A stretch of DNA of 64,000 nt, from the NCBI RefSeq assembly GCF_000006405.1, contig NW_003207677.1, forward strand, positions 315,504-379,503, written 5' to 3'. The notes under the pieces were generated by a model that searched no databases, had not been told where the DNA came from, and saw nothing but the letters and a program-made list of their open reading frames with translations. Shown piece by piece: positions 21,314-25,759 of this stretch. The position numbers were made by a program, and so were the translations under genes. Within the stretch, counting starts at the first letter, position 1, and each line of letters starts with the position of its first letter. The DNA comes from Perkinsus marinus ATCC 50983 (taxonomy: Eukaryota; Perkinsozoa; Perkinsida; Perkinsidae).

Positions 21314-24300
21314 AACAGTAACAACAACAATAACAGTAACAACAACAACATCAACAACAATAACAATAACAGTAGCAACAACAACAATAAGAGTAACAAC
21401 AACAATAAGAGTAACAACAACAATAACAGTAACAACAACAATAGGAGTAAGGACAATACCGAGATGAACATCATCCCGTGACCGATCCGAATTTAAAATA
21501 AACCCGCCTACTGCCCTCACCTTTTCAATAGGGCAATCGTGAGACTTGCAGAAAGCCACGGATATTCGAGGGTCCATATAGTTGATCTTGGAGGTAGTCA
21601 ACGATACCGTCTTATTATCCTCCTTATCAGCTATTTGAATCTTAGTCCGTTCAGCTGAGCACACCAAGTAGTTCTATTAACGGCCAAGTTCCTTACCTGC
21701 CAGTTTCTGCGACTTGATCTTCCTCACCAGAGAGTCCATGTTATTGGATTTCTCCAATTTCTTTTCTACGATGATTTCCTTCACCTGAAAAAACTAACGT
21801 GTTATTAACCCAAACCTTCCTATACCCTCACATCCTTAGACACAGTCTTCCCTAGAAGTTCATCTCGTCGTCCCTCTAGCCCTCGCAGAGTTGCCTGATA
21901 ACACCAATCACTACTGCGAATAACGAGGTGCTTGTCTACCTCCTGATCAGCGAGTTTCTTCTTCAGCCGTTCCATACCAGCCTCGTGCTGTTTCGGTGGT
22001 GCCCTCTGGAACAGGAAAAATACAGCGGAGCGGAGCGAAGCGATTCCTACTTGATGGTTACAAAGGATGGCTACTCTCCTATTGGCATCATTGTAGAACT
22101 TTACCATCTCACTAGGGTCGCTAATGTCATGTTCTTCCGGATCGAATTTACCTAGAAATGAAAAATGACAGGTGCCGGGATCGAACCCGCGTCGGCATAC
22201 ACAACTCCTGCTCCAATGTGATCGAGGCATTATACGTACGGAAAACCTAACACAGACCATAGCCAACTGGTGACACGCATGGTGTCACCTTCGCCGACAA
22301 CTCCTGCATAAACTGCTTGAAATAGTCGTTAACTTTCGAGGGATCAATCGAGAAAATCATATCTTCCGGTTTCCTCGCCTTACACAAGGCCTTCAGATTC
22401 TTATACACCAATCTAAAAACAACAACAACAGCCTTGAGAGCGCCCTTCCCCTTCACCCCTTACGGGTCCACTTGTACAGTATTAAGATAACGTATAGAGT
22501 CTTTACCCAGGAAGTCCAGTGTGATCTTATTGTCCGCCTCAAAGGTCATATGCTCGACTCTCAAACTACCTACACCAGACATGGTATAATGTTAGTCTCA
22601 GTGCTCAGTGATGGACTGAATCGATTACTATTCTGTCCAGGAACCCATCTGACTTCGAGAAATGATTTTCCCCAGGGTTCAATAACAATAACAATGACAA
22701 AAATGTTTCTAATGTGATGATGACATTTACACGGAAAACGTGGAAAATTCAAAATGAGCTCCATTCGGGAACATTATAGATTCCTCGATGATTCCCTGAT
22801 TCTGTTCACTGCGCTGCAAGACAAAAAGGAATAGGTGATATTACAGCAGCCCACAGTGTCGGCCTCTTCCTCCGTGTTCTTCTCATTGCCAACCTGGACG
22901 AGGGATAAGTCAATGCAGTTTTACCACCCTAGTGATATGAAAAACACTAGTGAAAAATATATTTCACTATTACTGCATATCACCGCGAGTATCGCGTTTT
23001 TGACCCAGTTTTATGCCACTTCACGTAAAACGGGCGAAACTCCTTTATATACAACCGGTGAGTTAATACACGCCTCCCTATGCTGACCATTTACCATTAT
23101 CATTTTAGATACACATGCTGAAAGTATAAGAGTATGTAAGAAGAATTTGTGAAAGAAATTTGAAAATGTGAGATTTTGACGCACGATTATATCCACGTAG
23201 CTTTGAAATATTAATAATTAACGTACTGCCAGGCTTTCCTGCATGGTTTTTGCACTTGGTTTTTAATGAAAGTAAAACGTGGACTCCACAGGAAATTTGA
23301 AAATGTGATATTTTGACGCACGATTATATCCACGTAGCGTTGAATTCACCAATTAATTTACCATCACATTACAGCCGTTCGAAATCATCCAGTGTTGGAG
23401 GAATATATGTTCTCAGCTTTCCTCGACTGAATCCACTAGTTTCCTCACTAATTATGCAAATTTCCTTACGAATTCGAGTTCAAGTGCAGAGAAACCAATG
23501 AGAATTTTTTCAATTCTCAAAACTTCCTCCAATGCCATAGTTAACTACTTGCGTATTTTCCCGCACCAAAATCACCAAGTCTTCACTTACTCTCAATGCC
23601 AGCCGATCGATCAGGTACACCGCCGTGCCCAGCTCCTTCTCATCATCATCAGTGGACTTCATCTTTTTAGTGTAATCGTCTCTGATACCTCTAATGTATC
23701 TACTCCCATGAGAGCCTCCCCACCACTGCTCACCACCGCTACCACTACTTCTTCAATTTCCGCGCCTTCTCGTATTTCAACCAATCACTTTGGCCTTTAA
23801 ACCCACTGGCAGCATTCAAGAAAACATATCTAACACCAGTGAGAGTCCAACCCGACACACAGAGATGCCAAACTACTTCACTTGATTGTTGATCGTATCA
23901 GTGAACCATGCAAGCCATGTTACAGCCGGATCATGAACCACATCCTTATACGCATGTCCAGGCACAGGGCACTTAGAAAAATGCCATATCACTGCGCTTT
24001 ATCATAGTTACTTACTCGAGGAGCCGGCGCGTCCGCTGCACAGTTGACAGTAACGTCCTCGGGCAGAATATACTGCTTCAGCTTGCCCATCTTTGGATGG
24101 TCCCCTCGACCTCGGAAGAGATTCGGAGGTTCCACCCGGAAGTTGCCAACCCTACATGAACACCAACAAAAAATAATACAATTTCATGCGATGCAATAAA
24201 GTTGATTTTCGAAAATACACAAGTCCTATCAGTTAATGAGAGGACCGGTCCAGATCTCATCTTCACTGTGTGATCCAACTTTCCCGGGAGTGCGCACAGC

Positions 24301-25759
24301 GAAGATTTAAAAGATATTTCCAAGATCCTCGACTGACCTTTCGCGCAGCTCATCAACAATGACGTGAGTATAAGGGTGATCATTTAGCCTTTTAGCTTCC
24401 TTCTCCGCCTCTTTCTCCTCCTTGGTCCTCGCTTTCTTCGCTTCGCTCCGCTTATCCAAATAGTTCTTAATCGGCTCAAAGTCGCAACTGAAAAATGCCC
24501 ACTCCCGGGATCGAACCCGGGACCTCTCCCTACTCCTTCAATTTCGTTATCTTGGACTTCAACTCCTTAGGCAACTTCGCCTGGAAATCCGCCCAAAAGT
24601 TGTTCTGAAATTTCTCCTTCTGACACCAGTCCGTACCTGATATCACCAAAGATACGCCCAGGTCCCGGGATGAAGATTCAAAGCATGCCCACCTAGTGTC
24701 TGCGCGAAAAACGTAGCAACTTCTTCCGCTTCAGGAGGTAAGTCGATTGGCTCTCCTTTGTACCTATTCCGTATCTTACCAACACCAACCTCAAGATTCC
24801 TGCATTACAGCATCTTAACTCCATGAGGCTCATAAGGAGGAGTAAATATCATTCCATGATGTTCCAGGTAAGACCATTTCGCCGCATTGTCCTAAATTCA
24901 TCCACTAAGATGACCTACTACCCCGATGCTGATTCTCATTTTTACCTCCGGATCCTTCTCCCACCACCTATTGAAAGGTTCAAAGTCGTCCTCCGTCCGC
25001 ACGATCGCCTTCCTTTTCCGTCCACCCCCTGTAGCGACTTTCTCCTCAGCTCCCTCCTGAGTAGATTCTATACCAAATCAGCCTCACATCGTATCACGCT
25101 CAGTGTGGGAAAACATGCGCATGGTCGAAAAATTATAAAAAAATTGTGAAAATTTTTTACTCGTTTCACTACATTTCAATTCGATTTCATATATAAACGT
25201 CTATAATCAATGAGGAAACTCCCGAGTCCAGATGAGAAAAGCAAAGATAAAATCCAAAACTGATTTCACCCATCCCGACAAGAAAATAAGAAAATGCCTT
25301 TTCTTCTCGTACTATTCACAATATGGTAACTTCGCTAATCAGTCGACTGAAGATCGTCAATCGCCTTCGAAGCGAATCGATACCTTTTACATGATGAAAA
25401 CAGGAGACTCTCAAAGTCGATATAGAAATACCCTCCCTAAGCTGAGAGATTTTCCGTTATAAAATGGCCTCCCGACAGTTCCGTTATAAAATGACCTCCC
25501 GACAGTTCCGTTATAAAATGACCTCCCAACAGTTCCGTTATAAAATGACCTCCCAACAGTTCCGTTATAAAACGACCTCCCAACAGTTGCCCAGCATCAC
25601 TTTTTTTGCCCTGGGCTTTCGCGTGGTCGCCTTAGTACTGCTGCTTGCGGCCTTTCTAGACGACTTCTCCTTTTTATCCTTTTTCTCTTTCTTTTCCTTT
25701 TTAACCTTTTTCTCCTTTTTCTCTTTCTTCTCCTTCTTCACCTTGTCATCCTTCCCCAT
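20907..25759 (-). CDS. TOP1: DNA topoisomerase I (type IB)
   Basis: Relaxes supercoils in the nucleus through a 3'-phosphotyrosine intermediate. Starts at the ATG at 25759 with a Lys/Glu/Asp-rich basic tail (MGKDDKVKKEKKEKKEKK), then core exons: FNRWWEKDPE, KWSYLEHHGMIFTPPYEPHG, EEVATFFAQTLG, DCDFEPIKNYL, PPNLFRGRGDHPKMGKL, PGHAYKDVVHDPAVTWLAWF, KGQSDWLKYEKARKLKK, LIDRLALR|VGNEKNTEEEADTVGCC, SLRVEHMTFEADNKITLDFL, GKDSIRYLNTV, VFRTYNASITLEQEL, NRRVAILCNHQ|RAPPKQHEAG, and the active-site segment TSKINYMDPRISVAFCK (catalytic Tyr in NYMDPR). The last exon ends NKFPWAMHSKSTWRF. Its introns hold two MITE-1 copies, a MITE-2, a 27-bp minisatellite, a 475-bp microsatellite, one family A and two tRNA-like introns. 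Confidence 0.93.
20978..21455. repeat. AAC/AAT/CAGT microsatellite in the last intron of topoisomerase I
   Basis: About 475 bp of trinucleotide-phased AACAACAATAACAGT units with occasional ATC, GGT and AGAGT variants. On the transcribed (minus) strand it reads ACTGTTATTGTTGTT. It lies between the active-site exon (PIEKV) and the last exon (IFAKTIRNKF). The poly-Leu, poly-Val and poly-Thr frames across it are not genes. Confidence 0.95.
22006..22050 (-). repeat. introner-like short intron, family A (copy 3)
   Basis: This 45-nt intron lies exactly between CNHQ and RAPPK of topoisomerase I. It reads GTAGGAATCGCTTCGCTC, then CGCTCCGCTGTATTTTTCC and ends TGTTCCAG. The conserved protein motif CNHQRAPPK fixes both splice sites. 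Confidence 0.85.
22152..22200 (-). repeat. tRNA-3'-half intron (family B, copy 1)
   Basis: This 49-nt intron of topoisomerase I (phase 1, between LEQEL and KFDPEEH) reads GTATGCCGAC, GCGGGTTCGATCCCGGCACC, TGTCATTTTTCATTTCTAG. The centre is a tRNA T-arm/box B followed by an acceptor-like tail and five T. It has no D or anticodon arm, so it is not a complete tRNA gene. Confidence 0.75.
22928..23044 (-). mobile_element. MITE-2 copy d inside a topoisomerase I intron
   Basis: On the minus strand: GGAGTTTCGCCCGTTTTACG, TGAAGTGGCATAAAAC, CACTAGTGTTTTTCATATCAC, then TAGGGTGG. The left terminus is intact and the right one is degraded. It lies in the intron between RLALR and VGNEK. Confidence 0.8.
23157..23343 (+). 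repeat. 53-bp direct repeat, two copies
   Basis: GAAATTTGAAAATGTGA[G/T]ATTTTGACGCACGATTATATCCACGTAG occurs at about 23157 and 23291 with two or three differences, 134 bp apart, in the same topoisomerase I intron. Confidence 0.85.
23385..23575 (+). mobile_element. MITE-1 copy in a topoisomerase I intron
   Basis: CAGTGTTGGAGGAATATATG at the left; CTTTCCTCGACTGAATCC, ACGAATTCGAGTTCAAGTG and TAGTTAACTACTTGCGTATTT inside; right end TTTTCCCGCACC degraded. It shares the RLALR|VGNEK intron with a MITE-2 and the 53-bp direct repeat. Confidence 0.8.
24488..24533 (-). repeat. tRNA-3'-half intron (family B, copy 2)
   Basis: A 46-nt intron of topoisomerase I between KITKLK and DCDFEPIKNYL. It reads GTAGGGAGAGGT, CCCGGGTTCGATCCCGGG, AGTGGGCATTTTTCAG: a perfect T-stem/loop, an acceptor-like AGTGGGCA, then TTTTTC and the AG. 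Nearly the whole intron is the tRNA-like unit. Confidence 0.8.
25085..25245 (-). mobile_element. MITE-1 copy in an early topoisomerase I intron
   Basis: Starts CTCAGTGTGGGAAAACATGCG and contains ATGGTC, AATTCGATTTCATATATAAACG and GAGGAAACTCCCGAG. It is diverged, and the terminal GAACATATATTCC is degraded. It lies between the basic N-terminal exon and the DDFEPFNRWW exon. Confidence 0.65.
25457..25591. repeat. 27-bp minisatellite, 5 units
   Basis: Five consecutive units of GTTATAAAATGACCTCCCAACAGTTCC with one or two substitutions each, at the 5' end of the first topoisomerase I intron (just after the RKPRAKK codons on the minus strand). Confidence 0.92.

Follow-up and report, generated by a model that had tools for sequence, protein, structure and literature searches.

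The mechanisms by which genomes gain introns in large numbers are not settled. Dinoflagellates and Amoebophrya form the sister lineage of Perkinsus. Introners are abundant in dinoflagellates (PMC11453091, citing Roy et al. 2023), and those of Amoebophrya carry inverted and direct repeats and have many noncanonical splice sites (PMC7789003). Introns have also come from transposon insertion, for example in rice catalase, with 35 events over several species (PMC3443670). In Perkinsus marinus itself, more than 500 tRNA gene copies of five types have been described, as have Dada elements, DNA transposons of 4.7 to 11 kb inserted inside the tRNA genes (PMC3706591). Here, we analyzed a 64,000-nucleotide (nt) stretch of the genome of P. 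marinus ATCC 50983 (contig NW_003207677.1, positions 315,504 to 379,503; "the window"), in which short introns of the topoisomerase I gene (TOP1) and of eIF2A contain the 3' end of a tRNA-like sequence. A dispersed sequence of this kind, derived from a tRNA 3' end and resembling a short interspersed nuclear element (SINE), probably became introns, which would make it an introner with a new type of source.

The TOP1 and eIF2A introns in the window share the core GGTTCGATCCC or GGTTCGATTCC, which corresponds to the T-arm and box B of a tRNA, followed by 11 nt, TTTTT, and the 3' splice AG. In tRNA numbering, the core occupies positions 52 to 62, the following 11 nt (the remainder of the T-stem, seven acceptor bases, and the discriminator) positions 63 to 73, and the T-run starts at position 74. 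The original prediction, made from the letters of the window, had placed a T-arm, an acceptor-stem-like tail of about 8 nt, TTTTT, and a splice AG in three introns at these coordinates; most of each intron is made up of the T-arm, seven acceptor-strand bases, the discriminator base, and TTTTT. The features are given below with scores from a T-arm position matrix, which was trained on 84 of the 101 genomic copies described further on, window copies excluded.

24488..24533, minus strand: TOP1 intron of 46 nt (splice reading, human TOP1 alignment, and deposited protein; matrix score, 49.0 bits)
24507..24517, minus strand: T-arm/box B core GGTTCGATCCC of this intron (motif search)
22152..22200, minus strand: TOP1 intron of 49 nt (splice reading, human TOP1 alignment, and deposited protein; matrix score, 38.1 bits)
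22177..22187, minus strand: T-arm/box B core of this intron (motif search)
42802..42863, minus strand: eIF2A intron of 62 nt (frame continuity and the paralogue on contig C142; matrix score, 37.9 bits)
42820..42830, minus strand: T-arm core of this intron

The TOP1 intron at 24533-24488 opens with the 5' splice site GTAGGG, continues with AGGTC, the T-arm, 7 nt, an A, and TTTTT, and ends with the 3' splice site CAG. The intron at 22200-22152 is laid out as T-arm, acceptor-like strand, A, TTTTT, and CATTTCTAG. The alignment with human TOP1 is gap-free at both junctions, and the spliced reading (424 residues) is identical to the deposited protein of P. marinus ATCC 50983 in all but the last three residues, which overrun an exon end. 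We drew ten short TOP1 introns (42 to 56 nt), one of 186 nt, and an approximately 1-kb stretch treated as a single intron, inside which the deposited protein has an extra exon of 17 residues. The eight short introns other than the T-arm introns also span 42 to 56 nt. We rejected the idea that these eight hold decayed T-arm copies, as their matrix scores reached at most 2.3 bits; shuffling gave P values of 0.02 to 0.04 in four of the eight, uncorrected for eight tests.

The eIF2A intron (42863-42802) is tRNA-like from the anticodon arm (TACCATCCGTGAGGTC) via the T-arm to TTTTTAG, with two mismatches to the anticodon-arm pattern defined below. The eIF2A peptide had no Pfam match, and its PDB matches were weak and of the WD40 type. 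The stretch is present in three assembly copies: in the window's own contig (C233), at C265:57029-57284 (97% identity), and at C142:611530-611782 (81%). Relative to the paralogue on C142, the exon flanks differ at 24 of 150 sites and the intron at 13 of 55 sites, plus eight gaps. The putative intron is thus supported by frame continuity and by the C142 paralogue, and the earlier claim that protein conservation fixes the splice sites holds for the two TOP1 introns and for an AP-4 epsilon intron (see below) but not for eIF2A.

Next, we consider the distribution of the motif over the 54.5-Mb assembly (347 contigs, with the window at C233:315504-379503). The sequence GGTTCGATYCC followed by exactly 11 nt and TTTT occurs 461 times in the genome and not once in the control; with up to one mismatch, the counts are 1,322 and 3. 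A looser pattern (4 to 24 nt between core and T-run, with AG nearby) gave 459 matches, overlapping ones included, against none in the control, and among the matches listed, the distance was exactly 11 nt in 68 of 84 distinct places. A version with another base at position 59 was found 200 times (twice in the control), and some of these matches are real tRNA genes (Arg, Gln, Lys, and Ile). Within the window, GGTTCGATYCC with up to one mismatch occurs 8 times versus 1.98 expected, a number reached in none of 100 shuffles, and the matrix finds six matches of at least 24 bits versus maxima of 12.9 to 19.3 in six Markov-resampled windows. Chance as the source of the motif was rejected, given controls of 0 for both the spaced motif and the anticodon-arm pattern. 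Nearly all copies lack a recognizable A box: an AGTGG-type A box (searched as TRGYNNAGTGG only) lies at tRNA distance upstream in only 4 places, one of them a real tRNA-Thr gene, versus the 461 copies. A separate A-box scan found 10 of 100 copies above a background level of 5%; in three of these, the A box lay at the offset of 43 to 44 expected of a tRNA.

To describe the copies themselves, we read 101 of them. The set comprises 100 places listed of the 461, in contig order, from which four identical repeats were removed and to which five copies were added (from the window, TOP1, a tRNA-Thr gene, and locus L153). Base 48 is C in 88% of these copies, base 72 is C or T in 98%, and base 73 is mostly A (77%) or G (18%); in 33 copies, AGGTC is the exact sequence of the variable loop. 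A pattern consisting of the 3' strand of the anticodon arm (positions 33 to 40), AGGTC, and the core, all in tRNA register, had 90 matches with up to three mismatches and none in the control, and the matches include at least two real tRNA-Val genes (L072 and L081). In the 30 anticodon-arm copies read (20 fetched from the 90 matches and others already among the copies), conservation drops upstream of approximately base 30, which makes the unit at most the 3' half of a tRNA. At three T-arm copies (L056, L057, and L150), ARAGORN does report tRNA-like genes, and full-length tRNA-like copies are present (L152, L153, and L171). In the window, ARAGORN found no tRNA gene, and an Rfam search gave three weak matches, none of them to tRNA. 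Real tRNA genes in the window introns were rejected on the ARAGORN result and the absence of T-stem pairing.

Protein alignments run across T-arm introns at 12 junctions (L numbers denote loci), 10 of them with the T-arm in sense and 2 in antisense orientation.

Sense, domain or protein across the junction: TOP1 (both introns), AP-4 epsilon, L126 (Helicase_C), and L108 (zinc_ribbon_6)
Sense, Pfam domain across the junction: L125 (MFS_1, just), L056 (DUF726), L017 (PSS), and L161 (AAA_7)
Sense, gap-free alignment with P4-ATPases: L165
Antisense, DEAD-box protein: L112 (Pfam DEAD; gap-free with DBP2)
Antisense, CDC50: L087 (Pfam score below the cutoff)

In L003 and L020, the Pfam domain stops at or before the junction, and these loci were not counted. 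In all, we drew 26 sense and 7 antisense introns, chosen by eye and restricted to GT..AG; 10 of the 33 have protein support, and five of the 7 antisense introns do not. The sense introns are 41 to 65 nt long (median, 50), with approximately 36 nt of each belonging to the element. The element thus fills most of the intron, except in AP-4 epsilon, whose intron measures 138 nt. Because the T-arm introns measure 41 to 65 nt and the other short TOP1 introns 42 to 56 nt, the element replaces the intron rather than enlarging it. Introns of unrelated genes (e.g., L161) are alike by up to 97% over 34 nt. Among 86 copies (the 101 minus 15 that belong to families G and H, are tRNA genes, or represent one allele), an upstream GTR is found in 80%, compared to 60% of the background. 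A tally of the same set gave 44 copies fitting an intron in sense only, 13 in antisense only, 4 in both, and 25 in neither; as this tally had no control, we did not use it as evidence. At the sequence level, the analysis establishes the T-arm introns with their tRNA-3'-end makeup and register, the copy number, and both orientations, removal of the segments from mRNA being judged by the protein alignments across the 12 junctions.

The two orientations bear on how such introns could be spliced. The four window introns are all in sense, as had been claimed, but L112 and L087 show that this orientation is not general. Their introns start with GTGAGAAAATGCC (L112) and GTAAGCAATGTAAAATGG (L087), with an A-run no more than 16 nt from the 5' splice site (GTGAGAAAATG and GTAAGCAATGTAAAATG). 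The proposal that the oligo-T serves as a polypyrimidine tract fits the sense copies, where it lies shortly before the 3' splice AG; because antisense introns exist, it is limited to these.

The remaining copies in the window are less regular.

46521..46658, plus strand: AP-4 epsilon intron of 138 nt (gap-free against PDB 9u9i; Adaptin_N below the Pfam cutoff)
43045..43134, minus strand: T-arm copy in a probable 5' untranslated region (UTR) intron of eIF2A, GT..AG, 90 nt (inferred)
14629..14674, plus strand: antisense T-arm copy with GT..AG ends, 46 nt (core at 14644-14654)
56408..56448, minus strand: T-arm copy followed by ATTTCGAG (motif search and T-arm matrix; core at 56426-56436)

The gap-free junction places the AP-4 epsilon intron where the original prediction had put it. 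In agreement with that prediction, the intron is a sense copy with A-box- and B-box-like parts; it holds a longer tRNA-like copy with no TTTT at the tRNA end, and its score of 18.6 bits lies inside the shuffled-window range (12.9 to 19.3). Related T-arm motifs announced near 43096, 56440, and 14645 were found, the first at 43101-43111, inside the segment 43134-43045, which is probably a 5'-UTR intron of eIF2A, and the other two at the cores given above.

As an explanation for these patterns, creation of the introns by a tRNA-3'-end element accounts best for their size, number, and dispersal. A dispersed family would derive from the 3' part of a tRNA or tRNA-like sequence, reaching from the 3' strand of the anticodon arm or the variable loop through the RNA polymerase III (Pol III) T-run, and would comprise the T-arm, the acceptor 3' strand, the discriminator base, and the T-run. 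Copies landing in genes would have become spliceosomal introns, mostly of approximately 41 to 65 nt. In sense copies, the T-run and the AG that follows would form the 3' splice site, and a GTA or GTG located between the variable loop and approximately 25 nt upstream of it would serve as the 5' splice site; an antisense copy would instead carry the complementary A-run among the first 16 nt of its intron. The family would most likely have spread by retroposition of 5'-truncated Pol III transcripts, in the manner of a tRNA-derived SINE. We infer an origin by insertion, an RNA intermediate, and a role of the A- and T-runs in splicing. In its widest form, the proposal is that a tRNA-3'-end retroposon lineage in Perkinsus created hundreds of introns or more, in either orientation, with the Pol III terminator serving in the 3' (sense) or 5' (antisense) splice region; this form is tentative, and we rate its chances somewhat short of even. 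If true, an exon insertion could be spliced out whichever way it lands, a tRNA-derived introner would link intron gain to Pol III products, and the case would illustrate how 36 nt of sequence can lend themselves to splicing in either orientation. Because the parent type is recognizable and the copies are numerous, existing genomes and RNA reads allow tests of where the introns came from, how old they are, and by what mechanism they formed.

Several results weigh against creation of introns by the element. Homologous loci were searched for in the same genome with 15 loci as queries (L136, a 16th, was excluded for N), and eight were found (on C265, C142, C342, C79, C212, C251, C324, and C229). 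Seven were read and C79 was judged by its full-length 100% match; all eight keep the intron, and none is an empty site. The introns therefore predate these allele and paralogue splits. Likewise, no target-site duplication was seen: between the two junctions of the introns drawn (26 sense, 7 antisense), no match beyond the splice consensus was significant, the lowest P value being 0.063 at a single offset. Because the copies are old, a decayed duplication would be missed. What stands of the claim that an element generated introns is that a dispersed tRNA-3'-end sequence makes up most of these short introns, whereas the marks of insertion itself were not found. Among 30 spliced peptides, only 11 contain a Pfam domain and 9 have one that crosses the junction, leaving 19 with no domain. 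A codon-based automatic intron test was weak, calling 15 of 101 copies compared to 30 of 1,000 control positions, and an earlier codon model, which collapsed, called 3 of 101. YAG follows the T-run in 66% of the 86 copies versus 38% and 56% in two background stretches, a moderate enrichment. The open reading frame around the 14629-14674 copy (14179-14916, plus strand) is also open with the copy retained, so this copy may be no intron and is perhaps read as exon. Independent transcription of the T-arm copies is doubtful because nearly all miss the A box.

As to the parentage of the copies, the outer T-stem pairs 49-65, 50-64, and 51-63 show no covariation, being paired in 51, 71, and 49 of 101 copies (shuffle means of 50.0, 73.0, and 52.0), and there are 88 different acceptor-plus-discriminator strings in the 101 copies. 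The sources are therefore neither intact tRNAs nor one master copy; in our interpretation, they are tRNA-like sequences whose fold has relaxed, comparable to a lineage of SINEs. On the diversity of the acceptor strings, we rejected a single tRNA isotype as the sole parent. A class II tRNA as a second parent was rejected as well (variable loop versus base 65, P = 0.29 by Fisher's test), as were the eight class II tRNA genes as parents, all of which carry GGTTCGAATCC.

Two further pairs of loci bear on age. L178/L184 and L141/L145 are apparent paralogue pairs with a T-arm intron at the same position and differing intron sequences, and the T-arm introns seem to predate these duplications. Two candidate alleles, C69:27501-42500 for L112-L114 on C52 and C69:200301-204300 for L058, led nowhere, and on C52, the site matching the L056 intron at 2188 is occupied by N.

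The absence of an empty site among the homologous loci would also be expected if tRNA-like fragments had entered existing introns that deletion later trimmed in length, with no new intron made, and the longer AP-4 epsilon intron is what insertion into an older intron should look like. However, an insertion into a 45-nt intron should yield at least 80 nt, whereas the 26 sense introns, with their element of approximately 36 nt, are about as long as the other eight short introns of TOP1, and we consider this alternative unlikely. Still less probable, in our judgment, is that the intronic box B has a kept function, as a site bound by TFIIIC or as a splicing signal, in either orientation, and is not the relic of an insertion. 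Bases 48, 72, and 73 do vary less than the acceptor strand, and the T-loop core is kept in the eIF2A paralogue on C142 (0 of 11 sites changed) and the CDC50 paralogue on C342 (1 of 11), where the rest of the intron has changed at 13 of 44 and 7 of 38 sites, respectively, plus gaps. Over all seven homologous pairs, however, changes were counted at 4 of 77 core sites compared to 31 of 263 sites elsewhere in the intron (P = 0.13), which does not prove a kept function. The conservation of the core partly reflects ascertainment, as the core was the search target, and the paralogous CDC50 intron is without the A-run.

The short introns could also be internal remnants of longer families, G and H (approximately 350 bp, with the head ACTAGGCCTTCGTGACGAAGGGGCGGAGCT), which would have done the spreading. 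The copies read of G (six) and H (eight) contain the T-arm and TTTTT, and a related motif, GCGGAGCGAAGCG, is found inside the TOP1 intron 22050-22006. Yet four head words of G and H are in none of the 13 T-arm introns checked, and many T-arm copies hold tRNA anticodon-arm sequence in place of G or H sequence, making this the least plausible of the alternatives, with a very small chance of being right. Creation of the introns by a tRNA-3'-end element remains the most probable explanation.

Families G and H are dispersed elements; internally, both have the T-arm and TTTTT, and a simple repeat of the CACG type lies toward their 3' part. The copies of G (L082, L083, L089, L142, L154, and L155) start with ACTAGGCCTTCGTGACGAAGGGGCGGAGCT or a close variant, and those of H (L002, L006, L058, L090, L096, L103, L148, and L149) have a similar head. 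The same T-arm/T-run module, as recognized by its motif, is thus housed in other dispersed elements. With up to one mismatch allowed, the 13-mer GCGGAGCGAAGCG is found six times in the window versus 0.03 expected. Two overlapping copies lie antisense in the TOP1 intron 22050-22006, and a TOP1 exon has another. The 13-mer resembles the G/H head and may mark a second intron-forming repeat.

22030-22042, 24439-24451, 26039-26051, and 2277-2289: exact GCGGAGCGAAGCG sites
22025-22037 and 49828-49840: GCGGAGCGAAGCG sites with one mismatch

Two other features of the window were seen in passing. A 268-residue open frame (56902-57708, minus strand) matches the Pfam family Totivirus_coat (E = 1.2e-8) and probably represents part of a totivirus-like capsid gene that became integrated. 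A 574-residue frame (8876-10600) contains repeated coding units (GAAATGGGCCCCGATGAGATTGCTTATGATGACATTTTCGA and variants) at 9018-9436 on the minus strand; they score 11 to 16 bits in the T-arm matrix, inside the shuffle range.

Compared with described systems, the P. marinus family shares with tRNA-derived SINEs the tRNA register, box B, oligo-T, copy number, and some full-length copies. It differs from them in that almost no copy has an A box and no target-site duplication was seen in the introns. The insertion in the rice catalase intron is reportedly a SINE. There, too, an insertion was taken up as an intron, whereas in P. marinus a single genome carries one module in hundreds of copies. 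Dada belongs to the same species and is linked to tRNA genes but differs as a DNA transposon of 4.7 to 11 kb that targets them. The likeness to the introners of Amoebophrya and dinoflagellates would lie in the massive creation of introns by mobile elements; unlike those of Amoebophrya, the T-arm introns of P. marinus, among the GT-AG introns considered here, show no direct repeat at their junctions. Our literature search, with subscription papers outside its reach, found introners together with Perkinsus only in the Amoebophrya paper and no paper linking introners with tRNA-derived sequences; the main text of PMC9860276 does not mention tRNA, SINE, or Perkinsus. As in the introner families described elsewhere (PMC9860276, PMC3443670, and PMC3488318), one dispersed sequence forms nearly whole introns in many unrelated genes. 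The families covered there are linked with DNA transposons or lack a known parent element, whereas the sequence in P. marinus is the 3' end of a tRNA, in either orientation.

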